Origin: a virus
Direction: 5' to 3' (one strand)
Length of the DNA: 64,000 bases
Virus record (IMG/VR): IMGVR_UViG_3300034108_000811
Location: 1-64,000 of that record
Numbering within the stretch: the first letter of the stretch is position 1; every line of letters begins with the position of its first letter. Below the pieces are notes generated by a model. The model did not search any database. It was not told where the DNA came from and saw only the letters and a program-made list of their open reading frames with translations. Below are positions 35,967 to 59,048 of this stretch, piece by piece. Both the position numbers and the translations under genes were made by a program.

Positions 35967-38900
35967 TCATCGTATTCCTGATTGAGATTGAACTTTTATA
36001 CCTAAATCTTTGGCTAAGTCTGGTAAAAACATAGGAATGTAGGTTTGTCCAACATTTGAAACAGGAAAGGTTTTCATTAGATATTTTATAGGATAGGCTT
36101 TCTTTTGCATTTCTTCATCACCAATAGCCATTCCATACATTTCTTTAGAGAAGTTGTTAATCAATTTTGTATAGTTGGTAATTAATGTCATGGAAGGAAA
36201 TATTCCTCTAGAAATCAATCCTTGAATACTTGTTGGGTCATAGAAATACATCAACTCATCTCTTAGTTTATCAGTGGCTCTGAGTAAAAACTTATATTGA
36301 TTTTTAACTACAGGGTCTTCATCATCATCTGGTTCATATGCTTTAAGCGCTAAGAACAAAGACATTAGTGTTAAAAGAAACACAGTGTCAACCATTTGAG
36401 CTTTGATATTAGATCTAACAAGTTCAATAAATTGAGCTTCATCCATTTTTAAATCTTTCCCTGTTTCTTCTTTGTATTTTTTAGACTTTTCTTCATATAG
36501 GGTTTTAATCTTATCTATCATTTTTTTATCGTTTCCAAAGATTGCACCTTTTAAACTACCAAGGGATTTAAGTGTATCTTTAGATAAATATGCAAAAATA
36601 GTCCTTGTTCTTCCCCACTCATAAGCATCTGAACCAGAGTTGTATTTTAAATCTCCAAATCTAACATCCACTTGACGAGGAATCCAACCCTTGAAAACCA
36701 TAAAAGATTTTCCATATATATTGAGATTGATAAGACGATTATCATCCTCAGATAGATTACCTAATGCATCTTTAGTTAAAGCTTGTACCTTTCTTCTTAT
36801 ATCTACAACACTTTCTGATTTTCTTTCTACCCCAGGTATAACAAGTTTACCATCTTCTATCTTGCTGAGTTTTAACACTCCTTTTTCCTCAATAAGTTTT
36901 TTTACGTCTTCTTCAAATTCCTCATCAAGCTTTTTTCTTTCTTCAACACCAACATTAAATCTATTAGCATACTTTTCTAAGTTTCTCACCTCTTCTCTAG
37001 CATTTTTAATAACACCATCTTCTACAATTGTGTTCTTAAGAAACGACCAAAAGTTAGTAACTTGTACAGCTACATCAGAATTTCTCATAAGACCCATTAT
37101 AAACTCTTGTACATTCTCCTGACTTAACTGATTGATAGACAGCTTCTTAGCAAGCTGTTTAGTTTGGTCTTCTGTTAAAGGAAGAAAATAATCTAGAGCA
37201 GCAATATACTTATCTCTATTTTCTCCACCCATCATTTTATTTTGGAAAATCCATGTACTAGAAGCTACAAAATCACTTTTTGTAAACCATTTTCCAGAAT
37301 TAATAATAGATTGAGCACTACCACCAAAAAGGTTTGATAGAGCAGAAAGAGGGTTTAGTCCAAGTGTGATTAGCTGAAAGTTATTGTTAATATTGTTTAT
37401 CACTTTGTTTAAACTTATTTGTCTTTCTGACATGTTTTCATCAAACAATTTAACTCCAAGCTTATCATTAATTTTCTTTCCCCAATCACCCATTTTACCA
37501 AGAAGAACATCAAAGGTTTCACTTTCTAGAAACTTCTGACCATAGAGAATAGCACTTGTCATATCTTCTATAATCTGGGTGTTTGTAGTGTTATCTCTTG
37601 TGTATTCTGTTTCGCCATTAGGTTTAACACGAGTTTTGCCCCACCAAGTGGTAGCTATTGCCTTTTTGTTTTTCTCTAAGTTGATGAGAGCTCTAGCTTG
37701 ATATTCAACATCACTAAGATATTTGAATCTTAGAGCCATTTCATTATATAAAGCCATTGTACGGAAAAGATCTACACTCACTTCTCCTTCAATCTCTGAT
37801 GTAAAATACTTAGGAATCTTTTGAACAGGTCTACCTGTTTTGAAGTCTAATTTACCCATTCCAACATCTCCCTGGTCAACGCTAATGCTTCTTAAGAATT
37901 GCTCTCCTAATGATATTTTTCCTCCAATAAACAGTTTTTCAGAAAGTTCTTTTCTCACCCAAGGAAGAAACACCCTAGTTTCAGCTTTTGATAAATAGCC
38001 AAACTCAGCATATTCTTCATTCTTTTTCTTTATATAGTTATAGAACTCTAGAGCTGGAGCATTTTCAGGTTTATTTAGTTCTTTCCATTCTGGAGATTCC
38101 CATTTCTTATTAGGAAACTTTTTAATGTCTTTGTACAATAACCATCCTACAGAGTCAATATAACTAATGTTATATAAATCATTCACCTTATTCTTTTCAA
38201 ACACTATCTTTGCACGAATTTTAGTGTTAATAGGTTCATTTTCAGGAGTTTCTGCAAGAAGAATATTCTCAGGCTTGTTTTCTATTCTTAAATGTTCTTT
38301 TTCTATCTGTTCTTTTAGATAGGCAGCATAAGCCTCTTTATCAATATTTTCTGAAATCCATTTAATATCCTTTTCATCTATCTTCTTTTTTAATGTAGAA
38401 TAAAATTCAGGAGAATATTCATCAATAAGTTCATTCTTATCAGACAAACTCTCTGTATATCTATCCTCAATCTTCTGCAAAGCTTCTTTATATCCTTCAG
38501 CAGAAAGATTGTTCTTGTTTTTTTCTAGTTCTGCTATATCATTTTTACGTCTTTCTTCTCCTTGTTTCTTATAAACCTCTGGCTTTTTTCTAATTATATC
38601 AAAGTAGTTACTAAGTTTCAATCCCTTAGATCTAGCCCATTTATCATATCTCTCCTTTATTCCAGATAGTATAGAAGTTTCATCTGTTGCATCTGCTTTT
38701 GCATAGAACAGAGCTCTGTTAATTTTCTTATATAAAGCTTCTACAGACTTAATTTGCATTACAGATGTACTTGAAAACCATTTACCTAGTCCTCTAATTG
38801 ATCTTTCTGCATTTTTAACTCCTGTAACTCTTTCTTTACCAGCAACAATATCGTTTGTAAAATTTTCATCCACTTCTTCTAATTCTGATAATAGCATACG

Positions 38901-41255
38901 AGCCTCATCTACAGAATCTCTCAATTCTTGTTTAAGTGCTTTGTCTTCTTCAGAAAGCTCACCACTTCCTATAAATAAGGATTTTAATTCAATATCAAGT
39001 TCTGTATAAAGAGTTAAGGAATAAATAGCGTTTTCAACATCACTAGAAAAGTCATTAATCACTTTTTCCCATTCTAATCCTGAGAAAGATGTTGGGTCTT
39101 TATCTTTAAATTTGCTATTATATTGCTCAATAATAAATCTTACATTTTTGTTATATATACCAGCTTGTTCTATAAGAGGTGCTATATTCTGTCTCATTTG
39201 AAGCTGCCTGATAGCAAAGAATAAAGCATTCAATTGTTCTGCCTTGCTTTGTTTTTCAGAAGGAAGAGCCTTCTTTTCAGATATTCCTTTATATATATTG
39301 TTAAGTTTTTCAAGAAGTTTATCTATCTTTTTGTTTCCAGTGGGCTCCCTTTCAATTCCTACAGGAAGTAAATAAGGGTCTAAAATGTTCTTAGTTTCAA
39401 CATCTCCAATAGACACTCCTAATAGTTGAGGATATATTTTGTTTAGAGCGTCTCCTTTAGAATAAGTGGCTATGATTGGAATCATTCTTGCTTGTTCAAT
39501 GTTTTCAGGCTTCACTCCATACATTCTTGAAAGAATGTTTATGTATGCATCCATTTGTTGTTGCCAAGCATTAATCTTATACCAAGGAATATCACTAGTT
39601 TGTTGATACTCATTTAAGCCCATGAATTTCCAGTCAAGAACTGAAATTTGTCCTGTTGGACGTATGGCAATAAAATCCACTGTACCTGCTAATCCATTGG
39701 CTGTCTTGCTATTATAAATAATTGTTTCAGAAAGAAATCTAGTTTTTCCTCCACCAAGATTGTTATTAAAATATAGAAGGCGTTGATAAAGATTTTCTTT
39801 TAATGTTTCATACATTGTTCTATCATCAGGATCAATCTGAGAAATATAGGTTGAATCATCTAGAGGAACATCTCTTAAATATCCATCTTCATCTACAAAT
39901 AGTTTAAACACCTCTTCAAAATCAGCATGTCCAGCTGTACCCTTTTCTTTCTTTAAATCATTTACAGCTTTGGTCCATTCACTATCTGCTAAAGCTTTGT
40001 CTGAAAAAACCTGGTCATACCAACTCTTAACAAGATCTGTAACCCTGGGAATCTTTCTTCCAGTTGCTTTGTCAAAATAACCATCATCTCCTCTTTTATC
40101 AATAGTAAACTTAGAAGCTTTTAACAGGTCGTACAATCTATCTTGTTCAGATTTTTGAAGAAAATATTCTCCTTCTTCTTCTCTAATATCATCAGCTGTA
40201 CCAAATTTCTTTCCAGATATAATATCAAATATAGCTTGGTCAAATCCTGATTTGGCAAACAATGATGTAATATAATCCAATATTGTTTTCCACCAGCTCT
40301 GAACCTTTGCTAATAGCTCAGGTTTTTCTGTAAGACCCTCAGTCTTATTTATAATCTTCTCTACTAATAGTTTTGCAATAGCTTCTTCTTTAAGCTTTAC
40401 AACATTAGGTTTTCCATCAATTTGATATTTTGGGTCATTGCCATATTGCTCAAACACCTCTGACTTAATTCTGTAATCATTAATCTCACTCATGAGCTTT
40501 TTATACAGAACAGGATTAGTTTGTTTTATAATAGCCACTACAAAGTGCATTGTTTCTTCAGGAAGAGCTGTATCTTCTTTTCCTTCAACCACTTGTACAA
40601 TTCCTTCCATCACCTTTGCTATACCGTCGGAATCTAATTTCTTACCATTAACTACAATTTGTTTAACTCCTTCATAGTTAACTCCCATATTCTTTAACAA
40701 ATCTTTAACTAAAGCAATCACTTTAGGTGATGCTGTAGAAGATGGCATTGTTTCTTTTTGTTCAAAAAGCTGACCAGGAGTGACAGTGGCTTTGTTTGGA
40801 GTTATTTCTACAACCTTTACTAATGGATTTTTAGTAGATTTTATAGTGAATAACGTGGGGTGTTTAGCTGCCAAATCTATCATCAATCTTAGATTGGGTT
40901 TAAACACTGTTTCTATTTGCTCTTGGTTATACACCAAGCTTCCTGTGCTAGTCCATCCTTTTGTAATAAAAACTGCATCTTTATGTTGGCTTATCACTCC
41001 CTTCAAAAGAGAAAGAATGGCTTCTTTTGATAAATTGGGGTTTTGCTCAAGAGCAAAGTTTACAACATTAAACATGTCTTTTTTATAAAACATCATCCAT
41101 GTTTTAAACTCTTTTACAGAAGGATAGTAGAAATCATCAGATAGTCCCTTTACGTCAGAGGAATACTTTCTGACAAAAGTTTCAGCTAGTTTCTCTCCAT
41201 ATACACTGGAAAGCTTTTTGAATTCAGGATTGCTTTTATTTATGCAAACACTCAT
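35967..41255 (-). CDS. Giant virion-type protein with PD-(D/E)XK nuclease (1762 aa)
   Basis: A 1762-residue protein. Residues 225-325 contain LPEETMHFVVAII (E233-E234...H237) and LKEEAIAKLLVEKI, a metallopeptidase-like pattern in which the first His of HExxH is Glu. Residues about 430-600 form a PD-(D/E)XK nuclease: KGTAGHADFEEVF, LAGTVDFIAI with D527, SVLDWKFMG with D541 and K543, and WQQQMDAYINIL. The middle is charged helical. The C-terminus has a hydrophobic segment (TVFLLTLMSLFLAL, about 1615-1630) and a conserved end. It overlaps the 5027-residue gene by four bases. Packaging in the virion is inferred. Confidence 0.75.
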   Translation of the reverse strand: MSVCINKSNPEFKKLSSVYGEKLAETFVRKYSSDVKGLSDDFYYPSVKEFKTWMMFYKKDMFNVVNFALEQNPNLSKEAILSLLKGVISQHKDAVFITKGWTSTGSLVYNQEQIETVFKPNLRLMIDLAAKHPTLFTIKSTKNPLVKVVEITPNKATVTPGQLFEQKETMPSSTASPKVIALVKDLLKNMGVNYEGVKQIVVNGKKLDSDGIAKVMEGIVQVVEGKEDTALPEETMHFVVAIIKQTNPVLYKKLMSEINDYRIKSEVFEQYGNDPKYQIDGKPNVVKLKEEAIAKLLVEKIINKTEGLTEKPELLAKVQSWWKTILDYITSLFAKSGFDQAIFDIISGKKFGTADDIREEEGEYFLQKSEQDRLYDLLKASKFTIDKRGDDGYFDKATGRKIPRVTDLVKSWYDQVFSDKALADSEWTKAVNDLKKEKGTAGHADFEEVFKLFVDEDGYLRDVPLDDSTYISQIDPDDRTMYETLKENLYQRLLYFNNNLGGGKTRFLSETIIYNSKTANGLAGTVDFIAIRPTGQISVLDWKFMGLNEYQQTSDIPWYKINAWQQQMDAYINILSRMYGVKPENIEQARMIPIIATYSKGDALNKIYPQLLGVSIGDVETKNILDPYLLPVGIEREPTGNKKIDKLLEKLNNIYKGISEKKALPSEKQSKAEQLNALFFAIRQLQMRQNIAPLIEQAGIYNKNVRFIIEQYNSKFKDKDPTSFSGLEWEKVINDFSSDVENAIYSLTLYTELDIELKSLFIGSGELSEEDKALKQELRDSVDEARMLLSELEEVDENFTNDIVAGKERVTGVKNAERSIRGLGKWFSSTSVMQIKSVEALYKKINRALFYAKADATDETSILSGIKERYDKWARSKGLKLSNYFDIIRKKPEVYKKQGEERRKNDIAELEKNKNNLSAEGYKEALQKIEDRYTESLSDKNELIDEYSPEFYSTLKKKIDEKDIKWISENIDKEAYAAYLKEQIEKEHLRIENKPENILLAETPENEPINTKIRAKIVFEKNKVNDLYNISYIDSVGWLLYKDIKKFPNKKWESPEWKELNKPENAPALEFYNYIKKKNEEYAEFGYLSKAETRVFLPWVRKELSEKLFIGGKISLGEQFLRSISVDQGDVGMGKLDFKTGRPVQKIPKYFTSEIEGEVSVDLFRTMALYNEMALRFKYLSDVEYQARALINLEKNKKAIATTWWGKTRVKPNGETEYTRDNTTNTQIIEDMTSAILYGQKFLESETFDVLLGKMGDWGKKINDKLGVKLFDENMSERQISLNKVINNINNNFQLITLGLNPLSALSNLFGGSAQSIINSGKWFTKSDFVASSTWIFQNKMMGGENRDKYIAALDYFLPLTEDQTKQLAKKLSINQLSQENVQEFIMGLMRNSDVAVQVTNFWSFLKNTIVEDGVIKNAREEVRNLEKYANRFNVGVEERKKLDEEFEEDVKKLIEEKGVLKLSKIEDGKLVIPGVERKSESVVDIRRKVQALTKDALGNLSEDDNRLINLNIYGKSFMVFKGWIPRQVDVRFGDLKYNSGSDAYEWGRTRTIFAYLSKDTLKSLGSLKGAIFGNDKKMIDKIKTLYEEKSKKYKEETGKDLKMDEAQFIELVRSNIKAQMVDTVFLLTLMSLFLALKAYEPDDDEDPVVKNQYKFLLRATDKLRDELMYFYDPTSIQGLISRGIFPSMTLITNYTKLINNFSKEMYGMAIGDEEMQKKAYPIKYLMKTFPVSNVGQTYIPMFLPDLAKDLGIKVQSQSGIR

Positions 41256-44200
41256 AATCTACATTTTAACATTTCTATAAACTCTGATTCTTTTATATCA
41301 AATGGCACCTCTAACAGTTCATTTATAATATCTTCCATGCTTCCAAGCTTATCTCTATCTTCCTGTGATAAGGAGTTATAAAACTCACCAACAGTGATTG
41401 TTGGTGATGTGGCAGGAGCTCCTTGTTGAGAAGCTGGAAGAGGCGTGGAAGTTTCTGGTTGAGCAATATTGTTAACTTTATTGCTAATTTCAGAAGGCGT
41501 GATTTTAACATTTGCTGATTGAGGAAGAAGTATCACCTCTTTTGAACTTCTTGTAATAGCTGTATAATACCATCTTGCACTATTCCATTCAGGAGCTACA
41601 TAGTTTTGATTTACAAACACCTTTTCCCATTGACTTCCTTGAGACTTATGACCTGTAACAGCATATCCATAAGTACCTATTATTACAGAAGGACTTAATT
41701 TTACGCCTTTTATAGTTCTTATTGCCAATCCAGATGATTGTAATCCATCATATAATGAAGGATTGGTCTCTCTGATTGATTTTAGAATTTCAGCATGATA
41801 CATACTTGGTCTATCAAGTGTAGAGAAAAAGAATAAAATTTCTGTTCTACCTATCTCTTTTGTTTTAACTTCATATGCTTTCATAGGATAGTTTTTAACA
41901 GTTCCATTCTTATCAGTGATTGAAATTGTTGTAGACAAATCTGCCCTTTCACTACCTATAGAGTCTACAGTGAATGTTTCACCATTAGCAAAGTTTTCAC
42001 TGTTTGCTACAGACATAACTTTCTCAGAATCAATAAGAATGGCTTTCTCTCCATCACCAAACTTTGCCATTCTAGCAACCTGGTTCATTATCATTCTTTC
42101 ATTATTTGTAGCTACAATTCCTATAACATCTTCTCCATCAGCAATAGCTTTTCTAAAGCTTGATATAAACTCTCCCTTTCCTGATGAAAGTGTAAAGTCT
42201 TCCATTGAAACAGATGGTATATATGCTTTTTTATCTTCTCTAGTTAATGTAGCCATCTTTAAAACATTACTGTCTAAAGACTGTCTTTTCACCTCTGTAA
42301 GTTCTGTGCTACCAATCAATTTAGTTCCATAGTTTTCTTGAAACTTGCTAGACCCTTTTAGAGATGAGAATAATCCAGAGTCTTCTCCTATTTGTTCAAG
42401 TTGGAAACCATCTCCTAAGAAAATCACTATATTGTTTCTTCCCTTTGCAGCATTAATTAAGTCAGACATCAGCTCTTTAGAAATCATAGAAGACTCATCA
42501 ATAATAATTAAGCTGTTTTCCAAAAGGGCTTTTGGAATCCATTCTCCTGTTTGAGGGTCAGGTTCTCCATAAATAGATCTATGAATTGTAGAAGTGTTTG
42601 CTTTGGCATCGCTTTCTTTGAGTTTTTCATTTAATACAACAACTGCTTTATTGGTAGGAGCCATGATTAAAACTGGTCTACCAGACATATTAGAATAATT
42701 AACCATGTTTTCTACAAGAGTGGTTTTACCTGTTCCTGCATATCCAGCAAGTAGATAGAAGCTTTGTGTAGAGTCATCAATTAATTTCTGTATATCCAAA
42801 AGAGCTTTAGTTTGTCCTGTTGTATATGATAGAGGATTTTTTCTAGTCTCAAATATAGTGGGTTTTTCATTACCAGCAACAGTTTGTCTACTATTCATAT
42901 CTACTGTTGGAGCTATTGAAGCACTCCAAATACCAGAAGCATCTTCACGTATATATCCTTTAGAAGTAAGATAATTAGCCATATCTACTTCACCTATATT
43001 ATACCCACTAGTATTATCTAGGTGAGCTTTAGTGTCCATAATAAAACGAGCACCAGTAGCAATAGCTTTATCAATTAGTTTATAAGGACCTTGTAAAACT
43101 CCATCTTTTACATTTATAAAACGATTACCACGATTTCCATTAGATGATACATAAATTAAATCATCAGATGTGTAGTTACCTGTATTAGCCAATCCCACCT
43201 GAGTATAAGCATTCTCCATACGTTGGGTAGTAGAGTCATTACCTCCACCTGTACCAATAAATTGTGTAGCTTGACGAATCTTAAATAGCTCTTTAGGAAG
43301 ATGTTTTTTGGCTGATTCTTTTACATAGCCAGGAGCTGTTACAATATCTTCTACAACTTTTGATGGTGCTTGTTCTGTTGGTTTTGTTGAAACTTCTACT
43401 AACTTATCAAAGTTTTCGTTAAACACAATGTTAGAAGGAATTGTTCCAGCAGAACTGAACATATTTGCCATTTCTTGTCCTGTATATCCATTCAGATTTT
43501 TTTCAGAATAATCAGATACTAAAAACTTCTTGTCTGGATTTTGTTTGGCATATTCATATAAGCCTTTTATCTCATTGATAATTTCTTGAGGAGTGCTAGA
43601 CTTTTCTACGTCATAGTATTTTTTAGTTACAATACCATAAGATTTTCCCTGAAGTCCTCTAGGTTGTCCTTGTATTGCTCCAAATTTTTCTCTAGCTAAC
43701 TTAGCAGATCCTGCTCCATGTGTAGGAGCACCTCCTTTAGAACTTCCTATGTTTGAACCAAATACAAATATTTCATTAGGCGCTAGGCTAACCACTCTAC
43801 CTTTATATGTTTTTCTTTCTGAATTAGCTTTTTCACCAGTGGATGGTTGTGTAGATTCTTTAGGTGGCTGTAATAATGGAGGCTGTTTTCCAAGATAGTA
43901 TTCAACTATACTACTATCAGGAATCTCAGTTTCCACTTTCACTGTTCCATTATCTATTACAGACTTAGTAAATACTTCTTTGTGCTCCACAGTGTAAGGA
44001 TTATCTCCATACAAATTTACTAATTTATATACATATATTGTGTCTCCTTTATCATTTTTATATGTTAAAGGTTCGTCATTTACCATCACTTTCTTATATC
44101 CATAGACATCATTAAGACTTGGGTCTCCCTTTTGCTTCATTTCAGCAAAGCTTAACTTAGTGATTGTCAAGCCCGTCTTCATATCTATCATCTCTCCAGT

Positions 44201-47200
44201 GGTTCTATCTGTCACTACACGAGGCACCTTTACATACATATATGGAACATCTCCACTATTATATTTCTCGTTAAGTTCCAATATCATTCTACTTGTACTT
44301 TTCATACCAAGCATTTCTATATTTGGAAATAAAGAAGAATAGTATTGGAAGATGTCAGCATAGAATTCACCATACATATCAACTTGATATGTAGCAGGGT
44401 CTTCAGAAGCGAAGAAGAACTTAGGCATCACCTTTGGAACAACATCATCATCTTTGAAAGCATTTCTATGAAAACTTCCTTGTATAAATGCTTCCAATCC
44501 ATTAGTGGAGTTTAAACCACGAATTACAGGAGAAATAAGAGTTTGCAAGTCTTCAACAGGAATAACGTTTCTTATTGAGCTCTGAGAGAAATAAGTTCCT
44601 TGTAATATGGATAGCTTAACCAAATCATTGTAAAACTCCTTAAGTTCATTATTACTATCTCTGAGTTCTCTCATCATACCAGTGTTCATATTCTCAGCTT
44701 CTCCACCCCTATCATTAATAATAAGCTTTACGTTTTTACCACCCAACATTCTATCTGAAGAAATGGGAATAAGTCTCTTTAGAACATCCACCTCTGGGTA
44801 TTTGACTGCCAACTCTCCTAGTCTACTTGCTACACTAGTCTTTGGATCCACCATAAGTCTCTCCACTTCAGAACCAATACTAGTTTTTGTTAAAATCAGA
44901 TAGTCTATAAAAGAAGCCTTTATCTTATTAGCTATCTTTTCAAAATCATCATTTGACAAGTATTCATCCTCAGCATAAGCTTTCATCAGTGTATTCTCTG
45001 TAATAAATCTGTATATATCCTGTTCAGTTTTAAATACTGTGCCCATAGCTTGTCTGAAGGAATTTAACAAATAAGCTTGCTTACCTATGAAAGTTTCTTC
45101 TAATATGTTATCTACACAACATATAATATTCTGAGTTCTGGCTTTCTCTGTTAAAAACTGCTTTCTTGTTAAAGCTTCTCCGCTTCTAAACTTAGTGGTG
45201 TCATAGTTAATGGCTTGTGTAAACTTAAAGTTTTGTTCAGCCATCTTTGCATATTTCAAAAACTCTGTCAGAATTCGTTGTTGCTCAATGAGTTGTGAAT
45301 TAGAAAGCTTTCCATTCTTGTAATAAGCCTCAATGTTTTCCTCAAGAGTGCTGACATTAAAAGGAACATCTACTAGTTCACTATCAGGAGTGTAAGAAAA
45401 TCTATCTCGTATTGCCTGAATGTTTCTTGAATTGAAGAGGCTTCTGATATTCTTATTATCAAGCATTTTTACATACTCTACAATAATAGGTTGGTTCAAG
45501 AAGTTTATGCCAGATTGCCCAGCACCTATTCTTTCTAAGAACATAGCAGGTCCTACTAATAACTGACTTCTGATAACCTTTGACAAATATGGGTCTTTTA
45601 CAACGTCCACTGTACCAGAAGCATATCCAGATAATCTCTTAGAAATAAACATATCAGTGCCATCAGCTGTCTTTCTTCCAGAAAGAGAAATGAATTTCTC
45701 ATTATTTTTCTCATAGCTATTATGCGGAAGATAGACCACTCCATTACCAAGAAGATTTCTTTCTATAGGTTTAAGAAGGCTAAATCTTCTTGGGTCAATA
45801 TATGTAGGAACTTTCTGAGTTATAGAAACACCAGTGATGTTTACAGCCACAATACCAATCCAGTTTTTAGCCATTTCATACAAGTGACGCATTTCAGTCA
45901 TGTATGTTCTGTCCAAAATAGATAGTTCACTTTTTGTTTCACCTCTTAACTCAATGATTCTTTGTGACACTTTTTTCAATCCAGCATCATCTACAGGAGT
46001 GATTAATCTTTCAAAAGCTTCAGGAAGAGTTAACAATTCTTCCATAGATTCAAAATATTCATTCTCTATAGAACGCTTATACATCTCTTTCACCCACTTG
46101 TTCTTTATAACAGCCTGAGCCTGAGCATCTGTAAGTTTCTTAAGCTCTGATGTAATCATTTCATTAAAATCTGCTGGGTCCATTCCTTCAAGCATAATAT
46201 CAAGAATTTCTCCATATTTATCCACTAGTTCTTTTGGATCATCTAAACCATAACTAAGAATATCAGCAGCCTCTCTTAACTCATTCTTTTTGAATATCTT
46301 GTTCTTTAAAATACTATCAAACTCTTTAGAAAAGAATTCTTTTGTTTCTGCTTCTGAGCCAAGATATTTAACAAGCTTTATATTTCCATTTCTATCTATG
46401 TATGTAGCTTTTAGATACATATTCAACTTGTCAATATCAAAGTCAGAACCAGCTTTTGTAGTGATTTCAGCAGGGACAATAATGGTGTCTCCCATATAGC
46501 TTGGTAAAAACCCTTTCACTCTAAACACTTCCATAGAGCTTAATGACTGAGTGGGAATACGGAAAGCTACACCTGAAAGAATTTTCTTACCCTCAGGAGA
46601 ATTGTTCAAATAGTCAAGAAGCGCAGCTTCATTTTTAAACTTACCACCCATCTTCACCTTGAACCAATGAGGAAGCATCACCTCACAATAAGGAGCATCT
46701 TTTGTGTAAAACTTTAATGTATTGTCAGTGAGCGCTACGCTTTTCTTACTTTTATCATCAAGAGCTTCATACTCTTCTTTACTAATATTTACAAACTTTT
46801 TATTTCCTTGCTCATCTTTAATTTGACGAACTAGTTGTCTGGAAGAACCAAGTGGTGCAAATCCTGTAACAGGAGCTTGAACATGAGGTCTACCATTCAC
46901 CTTCACTGAAATTATAGACTTGTGAATAAACGAATATACAATATTCTTAATTTGACCATAAGAAGGAGATGCTTCAAGAGGAAATATAAATTCTCCATTA
47001 TCATCCACTTGAATACTGTCTTTAATATTGTCAGAAAGTTCTCTTCTAAACATTTCATAAGCAAGAGCTTCAGAAATTGCGTTTCCATCAGAAAGAACAA
47101 ATCCATCTCCTAAGTCTTCAATGCCAAGTTTATTCAAAAGTTCATTATACGCATTCTCATGCATCATGTCCAAAATCTCTTTATTTCTTCTGTAAGCTCT

Positions 47201-50200
47201 TAACGCTTTGTCACTAACAGGAATACCATTTTCAAACAAGTCTATAGAAACAAGTTTTGTTGGTTGTGTACCTCTAATCTGTTGCTTATCAGCTTGATAT
47301 GAAGTTTCCACCTGTACACTATATGCTGACCAGGGCACTCTTACATTATTATTAAACCCATCTGTATTAAACTCTCCATTACCATTATAAAGAGAATAAG
47401 TTTCATCAGTTCCAAGCTTTCTACCAGATTCTACAATACCATATCCTTTTTTAGAGTTAAACATTTTTATATAGAAATCCTCAAGTTGTGTCCCTTCAAC
47501 TAAACTAAAGTAGATGGGCATTTGTGAAAACTTATCAAGAACAAGTTCTATATGATTCATTCCATCCTTACTACCTCTTACAATAGGCTTTAATATATTA
47601 AGCTTATGTTCAGGAGATGGCTTTGATAGAGTTTTCTTATCAATAGCTTTTAATTTACCATTCTCAGGATAGGTGTAGATTCCTTTTTCAGCAAATTTAC
47701 TTCTTGTATAAGCCATTTGCCATTGATGGAAAGCTTCAGCAGCATCATCCCATTGTCCACTCTTTAGCTTAATTTCTTTATAAGTGTTGTCCATTAACCA
47801 AGAAGCAGCATCAGCTACGTTAACCTCACCATAAGCTGAAGGTAGAAGATTTGCTAATCTACTAGCAATCACGTCATCTTTTATAGTGATGGTGTCTGTA
47901 TGAGATTTGTGTAAATGGTAGCCAGGAGTGTCTTCTGTTAAAGCAACATCCCCTACATTGTTGTATTTATTATTGAGAAAATTGTTGTATTCATCAGAAT
48001 TAAAAATAGACCTAGCTGGGGATAAGAAGCTTTTGATACGCTTTAGTTCATCAAGAATAATTTCACCATTCTTATCTGAAATCTTAAATTGATAGGGATC
48101 ACCAAATAAAATCTTATGAAACTCTGTATTGGCAATAGTGTAATTTATGGTGACAAATGAAAGAATGTTATCAATTCCTTTTTCTGTCATACGACTTTTG
48201 TCAAACTTTCTAGATGTAGCAAAGTCACTATCCAACATTGGATAGCTATATAAATCTTTTTCTCTAGTTATAATTTGACCAGATTCTACAAGAATATTCT
48301 TAAGTTTTTCAGTGTTTCTGTCTATATAAGTTTTTACAGCTTCGTTAATAGTAGGTGCATTTTCTTTAACATAAGTCATTATAGTTTCTACACTATCACC
48401 CTTATCAATCTTACTTTCTATTTCATTAATCGTTTTAGCTGGTAGAATTTCTCTAAACCATCTAAGTTGTTTTGCTTTCTTCTCACCTATATTAGCAAGA
48501 TGTTTTCTATTCTTCCAGTCTGAAGCTAATGCTATTTCATCCTCTAGATAGCCTGTAAATACATCATAAACTTGTGACCACGCTCTTCCTGCAGAAACAT
48601 CATCAAAAGAAATATTGTTTCCAAGAGTCATTAACCAAGGAGTGGAACCATCTCCCTGGTTTAATACAAAGTATCTACCATTTAGATTTTGGTTAATTTC
48701 CTGAGCATATCTATATCCACGACTCATCTTATATCCACTAAGACCTTTTCCAGCATCTCTATCTCTACCTCCTTGAATATATCCCACCTTTAGTTCTCTT
48801 ACAGATCTACCCTCTTCGTTATAGAACATTCCTCCGCTCTTTAACACTAAGCTATTTTTAGAGAATACATCGTTAAGTTCTGGCCTTTGTTGTTTTAGCT
48901 CATCTATACTATTAGATTCATTAAATTGATTTTCAAACAGGGAAGGTGCATTATTTTCTGAATATGACCCCACTTGTGTACCATCAACTCCTATATAAGT
49001 GTTTGAAGTTTCATAACTAGAGGCTTTTGCATAAAGCTCAGAGAGAATAGAAACTGGACCACTCACTTGAAGTGTTTTACTCTTTACACTATACACTTCT
49101 CTATTAGCACCAAAGTAGCTTTTCAAAGAGCTAACAGCATCATCAAACTTTTGCTTCTCACTCTTATCATTCATCTTCTTAGGAACATCACTAAGTTTTT
49201 GCCATATATCTATAGGAAAATTAATACCTATAGCAGATAGGTAGTCAATTTGTTGTTGTACATTTCTAATAGGAAGACTATTAAGAACAGACGTGTTTAC
49301 AATATATGACCCTATTTGCTTACCACTTTTATCGTTAGCTGCAGAATATTTTATAATAGAAGATGGATCAGAAGCCATAAGCTTCATGTTCTCAATCCAT
49401 GCTCTTTCCACTTCTTTCTTAGCACTTTGGAAGTTAGCAGATTGAGTGTATACATTTGTTCCAGAGATGTATTCTATTAATGCATCTGGTTTTTGTTTTG
49501 TAAAGGTTTGCCAGAAGTTTATAAAAAGTCTCCAATCATTTTCATCAAATTGGTCAAACTTCATAGTGGCTATCTTGTCACCACTTAATGTAGAAATATC
49601 TGCACCAAGTCTCTTCAGAAGAGATATATAGTTTACATCATCTTTGGCAAGCTCAAATGTTTTGTTTACAGCTTCTTGTACACTTGTTGTATTGCTCAGC
49701 TTTTCAAGTATTTGACCAAATGCCTTGCTAAAGTTGATAAGTCTATACCCATTTACAGAGGACAGTTCAGGCGAGAGTTTACCACCCTTACCTATAATTT
49801 GTTCTATAGGTTCATTTTTTGACCTAATCAATGTAGCAAGAACAAATCTAATAGCTGCTGGGGAAGTTTGTTTCCAATCTATTTTAAATGGATTACCACC
49901 ATATTCTTTAGAATTATATTCCTCAGTGTTAATATCTACAGCATCGTCAGTGATGGTTATGCCTAATGTTGTAAGTTTTTCTTTTGTTTTCTGAATCAAT
50001 GTGTTAAGTGATTCTTCTGAAAGACGATCTTCTGGTTTTACACTCTCGTAGTATTTTTTCTTTATATTAGTGAAAATCTCTACACCTGTAATCTTTTCAG
50101 GATTAAATATAAGACGTTTGGATTTTCCAAATAAATAAACAGCAACTCTTGCAGTCATGTCTTCTACAAAGTCACGAGTTTGCACTTCTGTTAATCCTTC

Positions 50201-53200
50201 TACAGCTCTATATTCAGCAGCTTTGTTATATACACTAGGGAATAGAAATTCTTTTTTAAACTTCCCAGCATCTATATCTTTAAACAATTGTTCCTTTAGA
50301 GAAGGTTTAGTTCCAAAACTCTTAAAGAAATCCACGATGGCTTTGAAGAATCTACGTATACGTTCAGACAAAGACCTTGCAGGAAGTTTTCCCACTCTAT
50401 AATCAGCAAAGTCATCCATTATTCTTTCTTTGATTTGCTGTCTTGTAGCTGTAGCGTATTGAAGTTTTTTACCAGAAAGTCTGTCTATAAAGGTGCCACC
50501 CTTAGCTCTTTCATCAGCTATAATAGCATCTTGCTCCTCATTAGAAAGCATACCATTCCATATAGCTTCTCCAAGCTCATGGTATTCAGTTCCTTTAAGT
50601 CCTCCTCTTACAAACTTAACAATGCCCTTTTCAAAAACACCCCATGCTTTTCTTGTTCTATTAATCTTAATTACATTCTCCAGTATTTCATAAGGAATAT
50701 TAGGAGCCACTTCAGCTACATAGTTTTTGAATATAGCTAAGTCCTCTTCTGTAATTCTGTTATCTTCATCTAGTTCTGATATTTCTCTATAATCATCATC
50801 TGTAGGAGGAGCTGAAAAGTTTCCACCAGGAGGAGTGATTGGAGGTTTTTTATCTTCGGGTTTACCTTCTACTCCAAGTGCTCTCTGATTAATAATGTCT
50901 TCATATTCACCTACAGTTTTTGCACCAGACTCTTCATAAGAAAGGAGACTATGCTGAAACTCATGCTCAATTACAAATTTCTCCCATGCGTCATATGTTG
51001 AAAATGCATCTGCGGAAAGAGCTGTAGCAGAAGAACCATCTTTCTGCTTACGAGGACTAGTCCAAGCTTTTTCATCAAACTTCTTTTTAAGAAGCTCTCT
51101 ATTAATAGTAATTTTATTCTCAGTGCGATTGTATTGAGCAGCTCCAGGTTCTCCTGTAGCTGTTGTAATAGAAGAACTATCTATCACTTGTATACCCTTA
51201 TAGGTGTAACTAGGTTTAGCTCCTTCTAAAGCAGCTAGTTCTGCATCATATTTAGCATTGATTTTATCAATAAGCTCTTCATAAGTAATAGCATTAATTT
51301 GACTAACTTTATTTGAGAAAGTATTACTAGTTTCTCCTTCTTTTACATCAAAAAGAACAACATATGGTTCTGGTGTACCATTATCTTTTAGTAACTCAAT
51401 ATTTCTATCATTAATTACTTTAGCTTCTTTTAACAACTCCTGTCTTCTTCTTTCTATATCAGCTATTGCAGCAGAAACTACAGGAGCTGTTGGTGTTGGA
51501 GCTACAGGAGCAGCAGGCTGTTCATTGAGAGTTTTTAACTTACTGCTTATTATTATTTGTGCAAGTGCATTTATTATTTGTTCATCTGAAAGACGAGAAA
51601 CAAACTCTGGATTTTTATCTTTATACTCTTCTACTAATATTTCTTTCAAACTATTGAATGTATCAATAGCAAGTTGTTCTCCTTTATTCTTTCTTTCAAT
51701 TAAATCCTTTGCACCTTCACTAACTGCTTCTACATTAAAGAATCCTTTTTCCCCAGGAACTGCTTTAAATCTCACCTTTCCAAAAGGAGGTTTTAATTCT
51801 ATGATGTTTTCTTTTTTATTAACAAAAAAGTTACCAACCATTGGTTCTTCTTTAGAACCAGGAGGAGGTGTTTGCTTAGGAGCTTCTTTTGGAACAGTTT
51901 GTACAGGAAGATTTATACCATTTATAACAGCATATTTCTGTTTAAATGAGAGTTTGCCATCTGAAGGTTCAGCTATATCAGTGAATAAAGGCAATTCATT
52001 AACAGAACGAGATTTACCATCTGGATATTTGTTACTTAATAAGAAAGATTGGTAATTAGTCCATTGTCTTTCTTCAATCACCACCTTACCATCTGCATCT
52101 TTTGTTGTATATAGCTCATAAAACTTATCAAAGAACTTACCATCTAATGTCTTCTTGTTGATGCTGAAATAAGTGTTCTGAAATTTATTTACTATTTCAT
52201 CTCTCTTGTCAGCAATTTCTGAAAGACCATATTTAATACCACCAATCTCAAGCTGCATTGTATCAGTGTTGAGGTTGATTTGGTTAGTTGAGGGGCTAGT
52301 TCTGTTACTCCAGAATAGAACATTTGATAGATAGTCAGAATATCTAGTGTTTATTTCAGGAGTTTTTCCAGCAGCTTGTGCAGCTATTAGCTCGTTAGCC
52401 ATAGCGTTAATAATCTCATATAGATTTGCAGCCTGCTGTTTAGAGAACTTACTAGACCTTATAAATGTTAAAGTGTCACCATATTGGAAAAATGGTCTAC
52501 CCTTAGGTACATTTATACTTTCTCCTTGGTGAGAAATAGTTCCTGTAGATGAGATTTGAATAATACCTTTAGTCTTAGAAATTAGGTCTGAAGGAATTAA
52601 GACATCACTTACGTAATTTTTATCTGACTCCATAACCTGTTTACCATCCTTATCAAGTACAGGATTACCATTTTCATCCAACTTAGGAACAAGAGGTCTT
52701 GAAGGAATGCCTCTAGATATTTTGAATTCAAATGCCTCATACTTATTAGGATCAGCTTGCCAAAAGTCTTCTCTATATTTCTTCCATGCTTTAGAATAAG
52801 CTTCTAATGTGACTTGCTGTTCTCCTCTATATCTTGGTTGACCCTTAGAATCTGTTGTTTTTATTGTAGGCATTGTTTGGAAAATAATCTTTCCAAGAGA
52901 AGGAGTGTCTACCCCCACCTTACCTATTCTTTCTCCATTTTGATCTACATAGTGTAAAGACCCATCTGTAGCATCTTGTTCTACAAACACTGATGCCATC
53001 CAACCATATTCTACATTTGTAGCCTTGTTACCATCATATTCAATGTCTTCCACCTTTGTAGAAGCGTCTACATTGTAAGACATTTGAACAATACCATTAA
53101 GCTTAAGCGCTTCAATGTTTTTATGATTGATGACAATCATTTTCATTCTACCTCTGTTAGGATAGAACTTAGCATTATTTAGAAAATATCTTGCACGAAT

Positions 53201-56200
53201 AACGTGTGGTGAAGAACTAATAGGAGCTTCCCATCCATTCTTCTCACCTCCTTCAGATTCAGTGACAGTAGATATGTAAAAAATAGGAGCATCTTTTAGA
53301 GCTGGTTCTTCATATCCACCTGTTTCAAATGACGTTGGAATGTCACCAGAGTTACCAAATATAGTGGATAGTTGTTGGTCAAGAGATGACTTGTGTCTAC
53401 CCATTTTTTCTTCAACACTTTCCACGAGCTCATAACCAGAAAGCTTTCTTGGGTCAACGTTGGTTATATTACCAGCATTATCTTCTATTTTAAGTGTACC
53501 ATCAGCATTGATGTCTAACACCTTCACTTTGTTATAGTCCTGAAGACTGTCATTGAATTCCTCTGCAGCCTCTTGAGCAGTATCTTTGTTAGAAAAGAAC
53601 AAACTATCTCCATATGGAGTGATTAGTTCATATCTATCGTCAGCAATTTTATTAATCTTAGCTGGGGAAAGAGCTTCAATTTGATATTCTCTACCTACAC
53701 TTATTGGTTCTTTCTTCCCTTCTTTATTTGTAATTTCTACACTAGCAACAACAGGAGCTTCTTGTTCTTCAGGAATAGACTGAGATGCCACTTGTTCGGC
53801 CTGTATAAAATATTCTTTAAACCCTTTCTTGTCTGAAAGAGCCTCTATAGCATTAGCTGCTTTATCTCTTCTAATTCTATCTCTATTAACATCTATACCA
53901 ATATTGTACATATCGTTAAAAGAATCTCCACTAATTATATTGTCACTAATAGATTTTCTTCCGCCAATTTCAAAATTGATAATTTTTCCAAGTCCTTTGC
54001 TGTCTAAATTCTTGGCCGCAATAGCTAAGTTAATCTTCTCAGACATTGTTCTAAGAGCCTTTATTCTATCTCTTATTTGTTTCTTATCCTGAGGAGAGGT
54101 GAATTCTGTTATTGTAGCTCCAAGTGCAGCTGCTTCTAATTCATATTCATCTCTAAGTGTTTCAGCCCCATCTTTTCTTAAGATGTTACTTACCAGTTCA
54201 GCAGATAGCATTGGATTGATATTCATTTTTAAATGAGCATCATGTTTTTGCAATTTATCTTCAGAAATATCTTTTACATTATGATAGTAGGCAATGTCTG
54301 TTTTATATTGTTCAAATATTTTATAGTTTTCTCTTTCTATTTCCTCTTGTTCATTTGTAGGATTGGCATAATAATTAAAAGGATTTTTAAATAATAAGTT
54401 AACAGAATCTGTAATTTCTTTAATCTTCTCAGCTTTTTCAATCATTGCATCTACATACTCACTCACTGTACCTTTGTTCTCCGCACTAAAGTTCATCCCA
54501 AAGGTTTTTTCAAACTCTTCTTTATCTAAACCTTTCAACATTTTTAGTTGCTCAATTGTAACATCATGCATACCTGAAGGAATACGAGATGTTACAAAAT
54601 TAAAGAACATGTCTTCTTTTAGATTATTAAACTTATAAACATCTCCTTTAGATACAGCATCTTTCATTTCTGAAGCAATGCCCATGCTATTCAATGTGCT
54701 ATCATATTTTTGACCAAAACTACCTGTTATGGGAGAATTGTTTAATATATTAATTGCAGATTGAGTTCTTTTATCTTTAGAATTGTTTTTTCTAGAATCA
54801 ATTCTTCCTAATATACCTCCAGAAACAATGGCGCTAATTGCACCAACAATCATATTTTCTACTCCTTCCTGTTTTCCAAATTGTTCAGAAAGACCAAATC
54901 CAGTTGATTTAATTGCTTCATTTAATGTATTCCAGTTTTCATTATTTCTAGGAATAGATAAATTTTTATATCTTCTTGTATAATAATCGTATGTACCACG
55001 TTCTGCAGCAAACTGCCCACCTTCTTCATACACACCTTCAGCAAGAGCGTTTCCTATAACGGGCTTAACCTTCTCCCAAGCTTTATCTAAAAGTTTTTCA
55101 GAAACCTTACTTTCAAAAACATCTATAGACCCTTTCTTTAAACCTATTTCACCAACACCTTCTGAAAATACACCACTCAAAAGTTTACCATCTTTAGCAA
55201 TCATTGATTTAAAAAGATTGCCAAACTGTATATTATTAGATAGTAGTAATAATCCCATGTTTATACCAAACCTAGCATTCATACCATTAGTTGCTAAATC
55301 TTCTATTTGTTCAGCATCTTTACCAGTGGGGTCACTATTAAAATGTTCTAGTTTATATTGTCTTGTAAGTTCTTCCTTAATTTGTCTATATCCATCTCTA
55401 GATTCTACAGCACTCTCCGTAGCGGTGCTTCCATACATAGCAAGTCCAAATCTAGCACCATTTATTATTTTTGCAGACTCAGCAGCATATGCTAAATTCT
55501 TTATATTTAGTATGGTTTGTTCTGATTTATTTAATGCTCTAGCTAAGTCTAAAACTTTATCTACTTTATTTGTTCCTGCAAAAACTTTATTTAAATACAG
55601 AGAAGCTCTTCCTATTTGACTAGCTAACAATGGTATTTCTCCAATACCTCCTGTTATTGCACCAACAGCAAGGTCTTGCACAAATGCTCCTCCAATTGCT
55701 CCAGCAGTGAAACCTAAGTTCTTTAAAACCATGTTTCCCCAGAAGTTTGCTGATCCTGTAGCGAAAGGAACCATAGCCAAATATGGATGCTCCTTCTCAT
55801 AATCTGTCATATAATTAGGAAAAGCATCTTCCATGTTTCTAAGAAACATGTCTGTATCTGATTTATATCCATCTTTTCCAGAAAGTTCTGATACAGAGCC
55901 TTTCTTTATTGCAGATATTGCATCAGGTATTGTTGAAAATTGCATAGCAAATGTTCCAACAGCTGTAGCTGCAAATTTAACAGCAGCATTGCCCCATTGA
56001 GATAGAGCACTTTGTTGAAGACCATATATGTTTTCAAGATTTCTGTCTCTTAAATATAAATCATATCTTTTATTCTCATCAAGTTCGCTACCAGGAACCA
56101 TCTGCATAGGAGAAGCAAATGTAGGTGCACTAGAAGGCATCTTTGAAAAGCTGGAAAGTTGGTCAATAGTAAGACCTGTTTTACTATCTCCTTTAGTAGT

Positions 56201-56335
56201 AAAATTATCAAATCCTCCTAAATAAAGATTTAAAGGTCTTGTATTAGGAGAACCTAAAGGTTGTTCAGGTAGAGAAGATTGCTCTTTGCTAACATCACGA
56301 CCCCCATCAAGAAGTTCATTATCAAGTATTGCCAT
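41252..56335 (-). CDS. Giant polyvalent protein: metallopeptidase, RNA-polymerase-like and helicase modules (5027 aa)
   Basis: A single uninterrupted frame of 5027 codons. Order of modules: Gly-rich hydrophobic segments at about 205-245 and 500; HEFQH zincin motif at 1791-1795; a second, degenerate HELGE motif at 1919-1923 followed by DDFADYRVG; an RNAP-like core at about 2840-3320, with DKFSQMPI (K2935), SGRKLG (K2973), FRIPTQSLS and the metal motif DFDID (D3298, D3300, D3302); a long conserved region to about 4130; Pro-rich linker; a macro-like domain EIFVFGSN (4188-4195); a small GTGGGNDST domain at about 4350-4480; an SF1 helicase with GYAGTGKTT (4531-4539), IIIDESSM (D4613) and GHKSQGSQW (about 4896). 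It is probably injected with DNA; the enzymatic readings are motif-level inferences. Confidence 0.7.
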   Translation of the reverse strand: MAILDNELLDGGRDVSKEQSSLPEQPLGSPNTRPLNLYLGGFDNFTTKGDSKTGLTIDQLSSFSKMPSSAPTFASPMQMVPGSELDENKRYDLYLRDRNLENIYGLQQSALSQWGNAAVKFAATAVGTFAMQFSTIPDAISAIKKGSVSELSGKDGYKSDTDMFLRNMEDAFPNYMTDYEKEHPYLAMVPFATGSANFWGNMVLKNLGFTAGAIGGAFVQDLAVGAITGGIGEIPLLASQIGRASLYLNKVFAGTNKVDKVLDLARALNKSEQTILNIKNLAYAAESAKIINGARFGLAMYGSTATESAVESRDGYRQIKEELTRQYKLEHFNSDPTGKDAEQIEDLATNGMNARFGINMGLLLLSNNIQFGNLFKSMIAKDGKLLSGVFSEGVGEIGLKKGSIDVFESKVSEKLLDKAWEKVKPVIGNALAEGVYEEGGQFAAERGTYDYYTRRYKNLSIPRNNENWNTLNEAIKSTGFGLSEQFGKQEGVENMIVGAISAIVSGGILGRIDSRKNNSKDKRTQSAINILNNSPITGSFGQKYDSTLNSMGIASEMKDAVSKGDVYKFNNLKEDMFFNFVTSRIPSGMHDVTIEQLKMLKGLDKEEFEKTFGMNFSAENKGTVSEYVDAMIEKAEKIKEITDSVNLLFKNPFNYYANPTNEQEEIERENYKIFEQYKTDIAYYHNVKDISEDKLQKHDAHLKMNINPMLSAELVSNILRKDGAETLRDEYELEAAALGATITEFTSPQDKKQIRDRIKALRTMSEKINLAIAAKNLDSKGLGKIINFEIGGRKSISDNIISGDSFNDMYNIGIDVNRDRIRRDKAANAIEALSDKKGFKEYFIQAEQVASQSIPEEQEAPVVASVEITNKEGKKEPISVGREYQIEALSPAKINKIADDRYELITPYGDSLFFSNKDTAQEAAEEFNDSLQDYNKVKVLDINADGTLKIEDNAGNITNVDPRKLSGYELVESVEEKMGRHKSSLDQQLSTIFGNSGDIPTSFETGGYEEPALKDAPIFYISTVTESEGGEKNGWEAPISSSPHVIRARYFLNNAKFYPNRGRMKMIVINHKNIEALKLNGIVQMSYNVDASTKVEDIEYDGNKATNVEYGWMASVFVEQDATDGSLHYVDQNGERIGKVGVDTPSLGKIIFQTMPTIKTTDSKGQPRYRGEQQVTLEAYSKAWKKYREDFWQADPNKYEAFEFKISRGIPSRPLVPKLDENGNPVLDKDGKQVMESDKNYVSDVLIPSDLISKTKGIIQISSTGTISHQGESINVPKGRPFFQYGDTLTFIRSSKFSKQQAANLYEIINAMANELIAAQAAGKTPEINTRYSDYLSNVLFWSNRTSPSTNQINLNTDTMQLEIGGIKYGLSEIADKRDEIVNKFQNTYFSINKKTLDGKFFDKFYELYTTKDADGKVVIEERQWTNYQSFLLSNKYPDGKSRSVNELPLFTDIAEPSDGKLSFKQKYAVINGINLPVQTVPKEAPKQTPPPGSKEEPMVGNFFVNKKENIIELKPPFGKVRFKAVPGEKGFFNVEAVSEGAKDLIERKNKGEQLAIDTFNSLKEILVEEYKDKNPEFVSRLSDEQIINALAQIIISSKLKTLNEQPAAPVAPTPTAPVVSAAIADIERRRQELLKEAKVINDRNIELLKDNGTPEPYVVLFDVKEGETSNTFSNKVSQINAITYEELIDKINAKYDAELAALEGAKPSYTYKGIQVIDSSSITTATGEPGAAQYNRTENKITINRELLKKKFDEKAWTSPRKQKDGSSATALSADAFSTYDAWEKFVIEHEFQHSLLSYEESGAKTVGEYEDIINQRALGVEGKPEDKKPPITPPGGNFSAPPTDDDYREISELDEDNRITEEDLAIFKNYVAEVAPNIPYEILENVIKINRTRKAWGVFEKGIVKFVRGGLKGTEYHELGEAIWNGMLSNEEQDAIIADERAKGGTFIDRLSGKKLQYATATRQQIKERIMDDFADYRVGKLPARSLSERIRRFFKAIVDFFKSFGTKPSLKEQLFKDIDAGKFKKEFLFPSVYNKAAEYRAVEGLTEVQTRDFVEDMTARVAVYLFGKSKRLIFNPEKITGVEIFTNIKKKYYESVKPEDRLSEESLNTLIQKTKEKLTTLGITITDDAVDINTEEYNSKEYGGNPFKIDWKQTSPAAIRFVLATLIRSKNEPIEQIIGKGGKLSPELSSVNGYRLINFSKAFGQILEKLSNTTSVQEAVNKTFELAKDDVNYISLLKRLGADISTLSGDKIATMKFDQFDENDWRLFINFWQTFTKQKPDALIEYISGTNVYTQSANFQSAKKEVERAWIENMKLMASDPSSIIKYSAANDKSGKQIGSYIVNTSVLNSLPIRNVQQQIDYLSAIGINFPIDIWQKLSDVPKKMNDKSEKQKFDDAVSSLKSYFGANREVYSVKSKTLQVSGPVSILSELYAKASSYETSNTYIGVDGTQVGSYSENNAPSLFENQFNESNSIDELKQQRPELNDVFSKNSLVLKSGGMFYNEEGRSVRELKVGYIQGGRDRDAGKGLSGYKMSRGYRYAQEINQNLNGRYFVLNQGDGSTPWLMTLGNNISFDDVSAGRAWSQVYDVFTGYLEDEIALASDWKNRKHLANIGEKKAKQLRWFREILPAKTINEIESKIDKGDSVETIMTYVKENAPTINEAVKTYIDRNTEKLKNILVESGQIITREKDLYSYPMLDSDFATSRKFDKSRMTEKGIDNILSFVTINYTIANTEFHKILFGDPYQFKISDKNGEIILDELKRIKSFLSPARSIFNSDEYNNFLNNKYNNVGDVALTEDTPGYHLHKSHTDTITIKDDVIASRLANLLPSAYGEVNVADAASWLMDNTYKEIKLKSGQWDDAAEAFHQWQMAYTRSKFAEKGIYTYPENGKLKAIDKKTLSKPSPEHKLNILKPIVRGSKDGMNHIELVLDKFSQMPIYFSLVEGTQLEDFYIKMFNSKKGYGIVESGRKLGTDETYSLYNGNGEFNTDGFNNNVRVPWSAYSVQVETSYQADKQQIRGTQPTKLVSIDLFENGIPVSDKALRAYRRNKEILDMMHENAYNELLNKLGIEDLGDGFVLSDGNAISEALAYEMFRRELSDNIKDSIQVDDNGEFIFPLEASPSYGQIKNIVYSFIHKSIISVKVNGRPHVQAPVTGFAPLGSSRQLVRQIKDEQGNKKFVNISKEEYEALDDKSKKSVALTDNTLKFYTKDAPYCEVMLPHWFKVKMGGKFKNEAALLDYLNNSPEGKKILSGVAFRIPTQSLSSMEVFRVKGFLPSYMGDTIIVPAEITTKAGSDFDIDKLNMYLKATYIDRNGNIKLVKYLGSEAETKEFFSKEFDSILKNKIFKKNELREAADILSYGLDDPKELVDKYGEILDIMLEGMDPADFNEMITSELKKLTDAQAQAVIKNKWVKEMYKRSIENEYFESMEELLTLPEAFERLITPVDDAGLKKVSQRIIELRGETKSELSILDRTYMTEMRHLYEMAKNWIGIVAVNITGVSITQKVPTYIDPRRFSLLKPIERNLLGNGVVYLPHNSYEKNNEKFISLSGRKTADGTDMFISKRLSGYASGTVDVVKDPYLSKVIRSQLLVGPAMFLERIGAGQSGINFLNQPIIVEYVKMLDNKNIRSLFNSRNIQAIRDRFSYTPDSELVDVPFNVSTLEENIEAYYKNGKLSNSQLIEQQRILTEFLKYAKMAEQNFKFTQAINYDTTKFRSGEALTRKQFLTEKARTQNIICCVDNILEETFIGKQAYLLNSFRQAMGTVFKTEQDIYRFITENTLMKAYAEDEYLSNDDFEKIANKIKASFIDYLILTKTSIGSEVERLMVDPKTSVASRLGELAVKYPEVDVLKRLIPISSDRMLGGKNVKLIINDRGGEAENMNTGMMRELRDSNNELKEFYNDLVKLSILQGTYFSQSSIRNVIPVEDLQTLISPVIRGLNSTNGLEAFIQGSFHRNAFKDDDVVPKVMPKFFFASEDPATYQVDMYGEFYADIFQYYSSLFPNIEMLGMKSTSRMILELNEKYNSGDVPYMYVKVPRVVTDRTTGEMIDMKTGLTITKLSFAEMKQKGDPSLNDVYGYKKVMVNDEPLTYKNDKGDTIYVYKLVNLYGDNPYTVEHKEVFTKSVIDNGTVKVETEIPDSSIVEYYLGKQPPLLQPPKESTQPSTGEKANSERKTYKGRVVSLAPNEIFVFGSNIGSSKGGAPTHGAGSAKLAREKFGAIQGQPRGLQGKSYGIVTKKYYDVEKSSTPQEIINEIKGLYEYAKQNPDKKFLVSDYSEKNLNGYTGQEMANMFSSAGTIPSNIVFNENFDKLVEVSTKPTEQAPSKVVEDIVTAPGYVKESAKKHLPKELFKIRQATQFIGTGGGNDSTTQRMENAYTQVGLANTGNYTSDDLIYVSSNGNRGNRFINVKDGVLQGPYKLIDKAIATGARFIMDTKAHLDNTSGYNIGEVDMANYLTSKGYIREDASGIWSASIAPTVDMNSRQTVAGNEKPTIFETRKNPLSYTTGQTKALLDIQKLIDDSTQSFYLLAGYAGTGKTTLVENMVNYSNMSGRPVLIMAPTNKAVVVLNEKLKESDAKANTSTIHRSIYGEPDPQTGEWIPKALLENSLIIIDESSMISKELMSDLINAAKGRNNIVIFLGDGFQLEQIGEDSGLFSSLKGSSKFQENYGTKLIGSTELTEVKRQSLDSNVLKMATLTREDKKAYIPSVSMEDFTLSSGKGEFISSFRKAIADGEDVIGIVATNNERMIMNQVARMAKFGDGEKAILIDSEKVMSVANSENFANGETFTVDSIGSERADLSTTISITDKNGTVKNYPMKAYEVKTKEIGRTEILFFFSTLDRPSMYHAEILKSIRETNPSLYDGLQSSGLAIRTIKGVKLSPSVIIGTYGYAVTGHKSQGSQWEKVFVNQNYVAPEWNSARWYYTAITRSSKEVILLPQSANVKITPSEISNKVNNIAQPETSTPLPASQQGAPATSPTITVGEFYNSLSQEDRDKLGSMEDIINELLEVPFDIKESEFIEMLKCRL

Positions 56336-59011: not shown

Positions 59012-59017
59012 AATTAG

Positions 59018-59048
59018 CAAATTTAATATGAATTATTATATATTCCAA
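59018..59048 (-). promoter_or_regulatory. Promoter for the giant-protein operon (minus strand)
   Basis: On the minus strand TTG (59048-59046), 20 bases, TAAATTTG (59025-59018). The ATG at 59011 follows six bases later. It drives the genes at 59011, 56335 and 41255. Confidence 0.65.

Follow-up and report, generated by a model that had tools for sequence, protein, structure and literature searches.

The window analysed here is a stretch of 64,000 nucleotides drawn from a 69,659-base linear viral sequence that is probably a fragment. A nearest-DNA search of the phage collection with the window returns nothing, and a generic TerL profile finds no match in the 69.7-kb record, nor in the 100-kb sequence G007, so the genome as a whole can be classified only in part. 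The locus is centered on a single open frame encoding 5027 amino acids, which is uninterrupted as the original prediction had proposed, but lies on the minus strand; stop codons fill the opposite strand (Table 1). A fusion of genes produced by a frameshift, which had been named as a risk to that prediction, is unlikely as frames of ~3,650-5,110 codons with the identical order occur in dozens of independent contigs. The giant gene belongs to a row coding for proteins of 553, 1064, 888, 5027, and 1762 amino acids, all in one direction, with the first three genes upstream and the 1762-aa gene downstream, and this layout matches the crAss-like transcription block, described in PMC7886860 as encoding several large multidomain proteins. 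The product of the 1762-aa gene resembles a giant protein of crassvirus cr108_1. Elsewhere in the window, adjoining genes at 6581-10317 match the RIIA and RIIB lysis-inhibition families, and a 689-aa gene just downstream of the transcription block (33435-35501) has many matches to tail-fibre/collagen-like families.

Table 1. Position of the giant open frame, its constituent regions, and the flanking genes in the window
Feature	Residues	Window position	Strand	Remarks
5027-aa open frame	1-5027	41252..56335	(-)	ATG at 56335, stop at 41254-41252, no internal stop
crAss001 gp47-like virion cargo region	1-2050	50186..56335	(-)	Separate gene in other crassviruses
Mobile HExxH cassette	1700-1825	50861..51238	(-)	HEFQH, residues 1791-1795, at 50951-50965
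Conserved PEP2 domain	1850-2035	50231..50788	(-)	Motif YHELGE; HELGE, residues 1919-1923, at 50567-50581
crAss-like single-chain RNA polymerase	2051-4145	43901..50185	(-)	Match to 6vr4_A; conserved in ~75 relatives
DFDID	3298-3302	46430..46444	(-)	Catalytic metal-binding motif, aligned with phi14:2 GSDFDIDK
Variable C-terminal cassette	4146-4953	41477..43900	(-)	Absent from relatives L002-L007
A1S_2505-family macro-like domain	4178-4318	43382..43804	(-)	NF049995 5.6e-24, phrog_2072 1.1e-25, AlphaFold/Foldseek
Module B	4322-4500	42836..43372	(-)	83% identical to part of the polymerase protein of distant L008
Dda/RecD2-type SF1B helicase	4500-4950	41486..42838	(-)	Walker A GYAGTGKT, residues 4531-4538
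C-terminal tail	4954-5027	41252..41476	(-)	Shared with L002 (40%) and L068; brackets the insertion
1762-aa gene, next after the giant		35967..41255	(-)	Weak exonuclease-like match, residues 430-592
888-aa gene, upstream of the giant		56354..59020	(-)	Relatives have a frame of 842-883 aa in the equivalent position

The core of the chain is an RNA polymerase. Residues 2696-3623 match the crAss-like virion RNA polymerase (phi14:2 gp66, PDB code 6VR4, chain A) with an E value of 1.8e-18, and the ~900 residues of homology, in which the motif is aligned with GSDFDIDK, confirm the RNA polymerase-like context in which DFDID had been placed. The consensus SDFD[IV]DK is kept in 9/9 aligned relatives down to 22% identity, with GSDFD and DK invariant, and polymerase matches are present in 131 phage records, mostly crassviruses. 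Alignment over 900 residues with a polymerase of solved structure suggests that the chain contains two double-psi beta-barrels; the two-barrel 6vr4 is the sole PDB sequence match, and the T7-like polymerase fold of the N4 type is not matched. By homology with phi14:2 and crAss001, the protein would be packaged in the virion and would transcribe early genes (PMC10172136, PMC10136315). The giant size is already known, since the crAss-like group is on record as having single polymerase genes that reach about 6000 aa (PMC10136315) and large proteins without an assigned function have been noted fused to such polymerases (PMC10770324).

The N-terminal region is related to a second virion protein. 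Residues 57-644 match crAss001 gp47 (tblastn, 1e-8), and a profile of residues 1-1640 matches a protein that Dulem virus 41 encodes separately, upstream, at 1.3e-50. The N-terminal profile has no match to phi14:2 gp67, and searches of Pfam and PHROGs with residues 1-1800 and 1500-3500 give chance-level matches only. crAss001 encodes gp47 and gp50 as two genes, and mass spectrometry finds gp47, gp49, and gp50 in its virions (PMC10172136). The 5027-aa chain is therefore most plausibly two virion subunits in one, a gp47-type protein fused to the polymerase, with a predicted junction near residue 2050 as PEP2 is located near the end of gp47-type proteins. That same location, seen in Dulem_a and crAss001 gp47, rules out PEP2 as part of the polymerase gene. 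The hydrophobic Gly-rich segments described in the original prediction are present and are conserved in relatives; as membrane spans they find no support, none reaching transmembrane-type hydropathy (Kyte-Doolittle mean of 1.6 over 19 residues). A homologue of the N-terminal region (25% identity, E 1e-51) occurs in Leptolyngbya phage Lbo-JY46 (PP438436.1), a cyanobacterial phage by its record, together with weaker homologues of the 888-aa, 1064-aa, and 553-aa proteins in the same gene order and with no match to the DFDID polymerase. Might this be a crAss-like cargo operon beyond Bacteroidota?

Two metallopeptidase-like motifs had been proposed in this part of the chain. The first, HEFQH, is a true HExxH motif, the second, HELGE, is not, and neither region yields a peptidase fold. 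HEFQH lies in a cassette of ~120 residues, which shares 80% identity with the equivalent segment of L007, compared with 44% for the whole protein. The cassette is mobile, with insertion at this site common only to the present protein and L007. It is placed C-terminal of the polymerase in L031, L032, L034, L055, and L069, after PEP2 in L053, and in a downstream gene of L035, and it is absent from most relatives among the matches listed; HExxH is preserved in all copies. The last position of the PEP2 motif is Glu in about 60 relatives, this one included, and His in about 21. Because most relatives have conserved a Glu where the second His would stand, the motif seems to be under selection and not decaying. 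An AlphaFold model of the HExxH and PEP2 regions has a mean pLDDT of 66, and a Foldseek search with it gives nothing significant and no peptidase fold, AQ_1354 (PDB code 1oz9), a YbeY-like HExxH protein, appearing only at a probability of 0.25. The PEP2 and HExxH alignments give no credible match in PDB profile searches, and these regions are at most putative peptidases, named so for their motifs.

Substantial differences from the closest relatives occur at the C terminus. The homology to L003-L007 stops at about residues 4144-4169, and the final 74 residues match the tails of L002 and L068. The inserted cassette consists of an A1S_2505 domain, module B, and a Dda/RecD2-type helicase, in that order, and its base composition is not distinct from that of the surroundings. 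The A1S_2505 domain scores 84.5 bits against an NCBIfam cut-off of 45, and the corresponding part of the AlphaFold model (about residues 4180-4310) has pLDDT values mostly of 80-95. In Foldseek the top hit of this part is TARG1 (E 0.015, probability 0.98, TM(target) about 0.5), and macro domains form the majority of the top 50. No PDB structure is matched below E 0.01, and a PDB profile search with the A1S_2505 alignment gives no credible match. The macro-like domain of the original prediction is thus supported by family membership and by the resemblance of the model to TARG1 and macro domains, though not by a structure match below that E value, and a macro fold is probable.

Module B belongs to no known family found in searches and, besides L008, has remote Vibrio phage matches only; an assignment as SLOG is unsupported and was dropped. 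Its DNA is 79.8% identical to L008 over 435 nucleotides, the rest of the 15-kb gene having no DNA match to L008, whose polymerase is about 25% identical to the present one. This identity amid an otherwise unmatched locus points to a recent exchange of module B between distant phages.

The SF1 helicase expected after residue 4500 is clearly defined by Pfam AAA_30 (4.5e-24), UvrD_C_2 (1.2e-12), and the PHROG Dda-like family (7.9e-59), with intact motifs. Walker A, DExx, GDxxQ, and the C-terminal motifs are retained in 7/7 fused copies (this one and six others), and no second Dda-like helicase is found in the record. A single chain thus carries an RNA polymerase core and an SF1 helicase with a macro-like domain in between, as had been proposed.

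The linker C-terminal to the polymerase was compared among related polymerases. A scan with the polymerase alignment gives at least 498 loci, from which the best 80 were taken, a sample of the nearest relatives rather than of the full diversity. Among these best 80 of at least 498, module profiles and Pfam/PHROG searches place in the linker a Dda-like helicase in L053, L068, L077, and L078 and also in L009; A1S_2505 or DUF7831 in L068, L074, L077, L103, and L110 and also in L009 and L010; NADAR in L031, L038, and L078; cpYpsA SLOG in L031; an AlkB-like oxygenase in L040, L047, and L078; and the HExxH cassette in the five loci given above. On a polymerase tree from the same sample (78 rows, 75 scored for modules), the helicase is present in 6/75 scored rows and its label needs five changes, of which well supported branches force four, and the A1S_2505 label needs seven, a change being a gain or a loss and the counts near the root being soft as the tree is a quick one with long-branched deepest rows. 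The C-terminal linker is a hotspot of module swapping among phages. Most relatives among the matches listed have no recognisable add-on, indicating that the add-ons are dispensable for polymerase function. The helicase and macro-like parts are not the integral components of one machine that the original prediction took them for, and instead are swappable C-terminal modules. In L078 (2579-18052) the polymerase is split within its core into two adjacent frames, and AlkB-like, NADAR, and helicase modules follow in series at the C terminus. In cr112_1 (L113, 2126-2491) the A1S_2505 domain is located at the N terminus of the polymerase instead of the C terminus, so it attaches at more than one site. 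A polymerase-type gene with an A1S_2505 domain also occurs in a cultured crassvirus, Kolpuevirus 'frurule' of Bacteroides cellulosilyticus.

The original prediction knew of no described protein that joins an RNA polymerase core, an SF1 helicase, and a peptidase; the combination is not unique. The same order is found in phage contigs L077 and L009 and in the deposited Cohcovirus hiberniae cr50_1 protein YP_010110216.1, which is also the top match of the cassette model in a viral structure library. This protein, labelled "DNA helicase," contains YHEAFH, SDFDID, A1S_2505, and a Dda-like helicase in one frame of 4774 aa, and the architecture is accordingly already in the databases. It is very divergent from the present chain, matches neither the HEFQH cassette nor module B, and has a helicase of somewhat different make-up. 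A literature search for a crassvirus polymerase-helicase fusion found no description, and an earlier mention is possible. Compared with phi14:2 gp66 (6VR4) and crAss001 gp50, the present chain has a homologous single-chain polymerase with DFDID in a block of giant genes, and differs in the fusion of the polymerase to a gp47-like protein and to the helicase and macro-like cassette. The N4-type virion RNA polymerases and polyvalent proteins (PMC5512222) likewise join a giant injected polymerase to a peptidase-like domain and other effectors, but the N4 polymerase is T7-like and the present one is of the two-barrel type. The P23-45 virion RNA polymerase (5,002 aa; PMC10770324) is a giant two-barrel protein as here, is fused to a tape measure protein, and is described in that paper with no mention of a helicase. 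The helicase domain itself is shared with T4 Dda and RecD2, which are free-standing or otherwise fused, and in cr3_1 a replication gene of its own encodes a Dda-type helicase. The novelty lies in a C-terminal cassette that recurs and is exchanged; the giant polymerase itself is already known.

These observations are probably best accommodated by a virion-delivered polymerase that carries lineage-specific C-terminal accessory enzymes, the linker serving as a hotspot for activities that clear or de-modify DNA. The chain would be packed in the capsid and ejected before or together with the DNA, as reported for the phi14:2 and crAss001 homologues, and the polymerase would transcribe the early genes. 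The Dda/RecD2-like helicase and macro-like domain would enter tethered to it and work on that DNA as it comes in, with the helicase stripping bound proteins or opening the DNA and the macro-like domain taking off ADP-ribose-type marks left by host defence (e.g. by DarT-like toxins). The captured set of helicase, ADP-ribose, and alkylation-reversal enzymes fits a role in clearing and restoring incoming DNA for the fused polymerase. NADAR removes ADP-ribose from guanine, thymidine-linked ADP-ribose in DNA is the substrate of a TARG1-like macro enzyme, and DarTG systems are anti-phage defences (PMC11125620, PMC11833690). Phage fusions of SLOG with SF1 helicases have been interpreted as regulated by NAD/ADP-ribose signals (PMC9503650). 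Against a counter-defence role, the phage NADARs tested hydrolyse their substrate in vitro yet do not protect cells from DarT1 (PMC11125620). More tentatively, the linker could be a fast-exchanging dock through which a single polypeptide delivers transcription-coupled repair and counter-defence ahead of all phage gene expression, its cargo being DNA-clearing, DNA/RNA de-ADP-ribosylating, or dealkylating enzymes carried on the first transcribing complex.

The main rival takes the helicase as a transcription factor acting in cis, which clears roadblocks, R-loops, and stalled complexes with the macro-like domain being incidental; PcrA/UvrD and HelD with cellular RNA polymerase would be the nearest functional analogy. 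SF1 helicases that bind RNA polymerase are well known (PMC8318588, PMC7749167), the motifs are intact in every fused copy, and visibly different helicases have been captured in scattered lineages. However, Dda/RecD2 differs from the UvrD/HelD type, the absence of the helicase from most related polymerases among the matches listed means it is unneeded for elongation, and the co-travelling NADAR, AlkB, and macro-like modules are better suited to DNA repair or counter-defence, making this reading unlikely. An improbable alternative is that the giant is a polyprotein-like carrier cleaved by its HExxH/HExxE regions after ejection to release polymerase, helicase, and macro-like proteins individually, the fusion serving only for packaging at a fixed ratio. 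Other crassviruses encode the equivalent parts separately, a metallopeptidase domain is fused to nearly all N4-type virion RNA polymerases (PMC5512222), and each cassette copy retains HExxH, but the PEP2 Glu seen here and in most relatives (about 60 loci), the failure of AlphaFold and Foldseek to reveal a peptidase fold, and the lack of the HExxH cassette in most relatives among the matches listed argue against cleavage. Least probable is that the modules are neutral insertions into a flexible linker with no functional coupling, which would suit a linker that varies in almost every lineage with frequent loss and gain of modules among the matches listed, but not the helicase catalytic motifs intact throughout, the open frames, or a captured set skewed to nucleic-acid and ADP-ribose enzymes.

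The favoured reading of a virion-delivered polymerase with exchangeable accessory enzymes turns an unlabelled stretch of the largest protein of an abundant phage group into a testable delivery hotspot, and the cassette accounts for the bare "DNA helicase" label given to some giant crassvirus polymerase proteins. The captured Dda helicase, macro-like, NADAR, SLOG, and AlkB-like modules hint at the defences that these phages face, in particular ADP-ribosylation of nucleic acids. If the modules act on incoming DNA, counter-defence and repair enzymes would arrive with the polymerase, ahead of host immunity.
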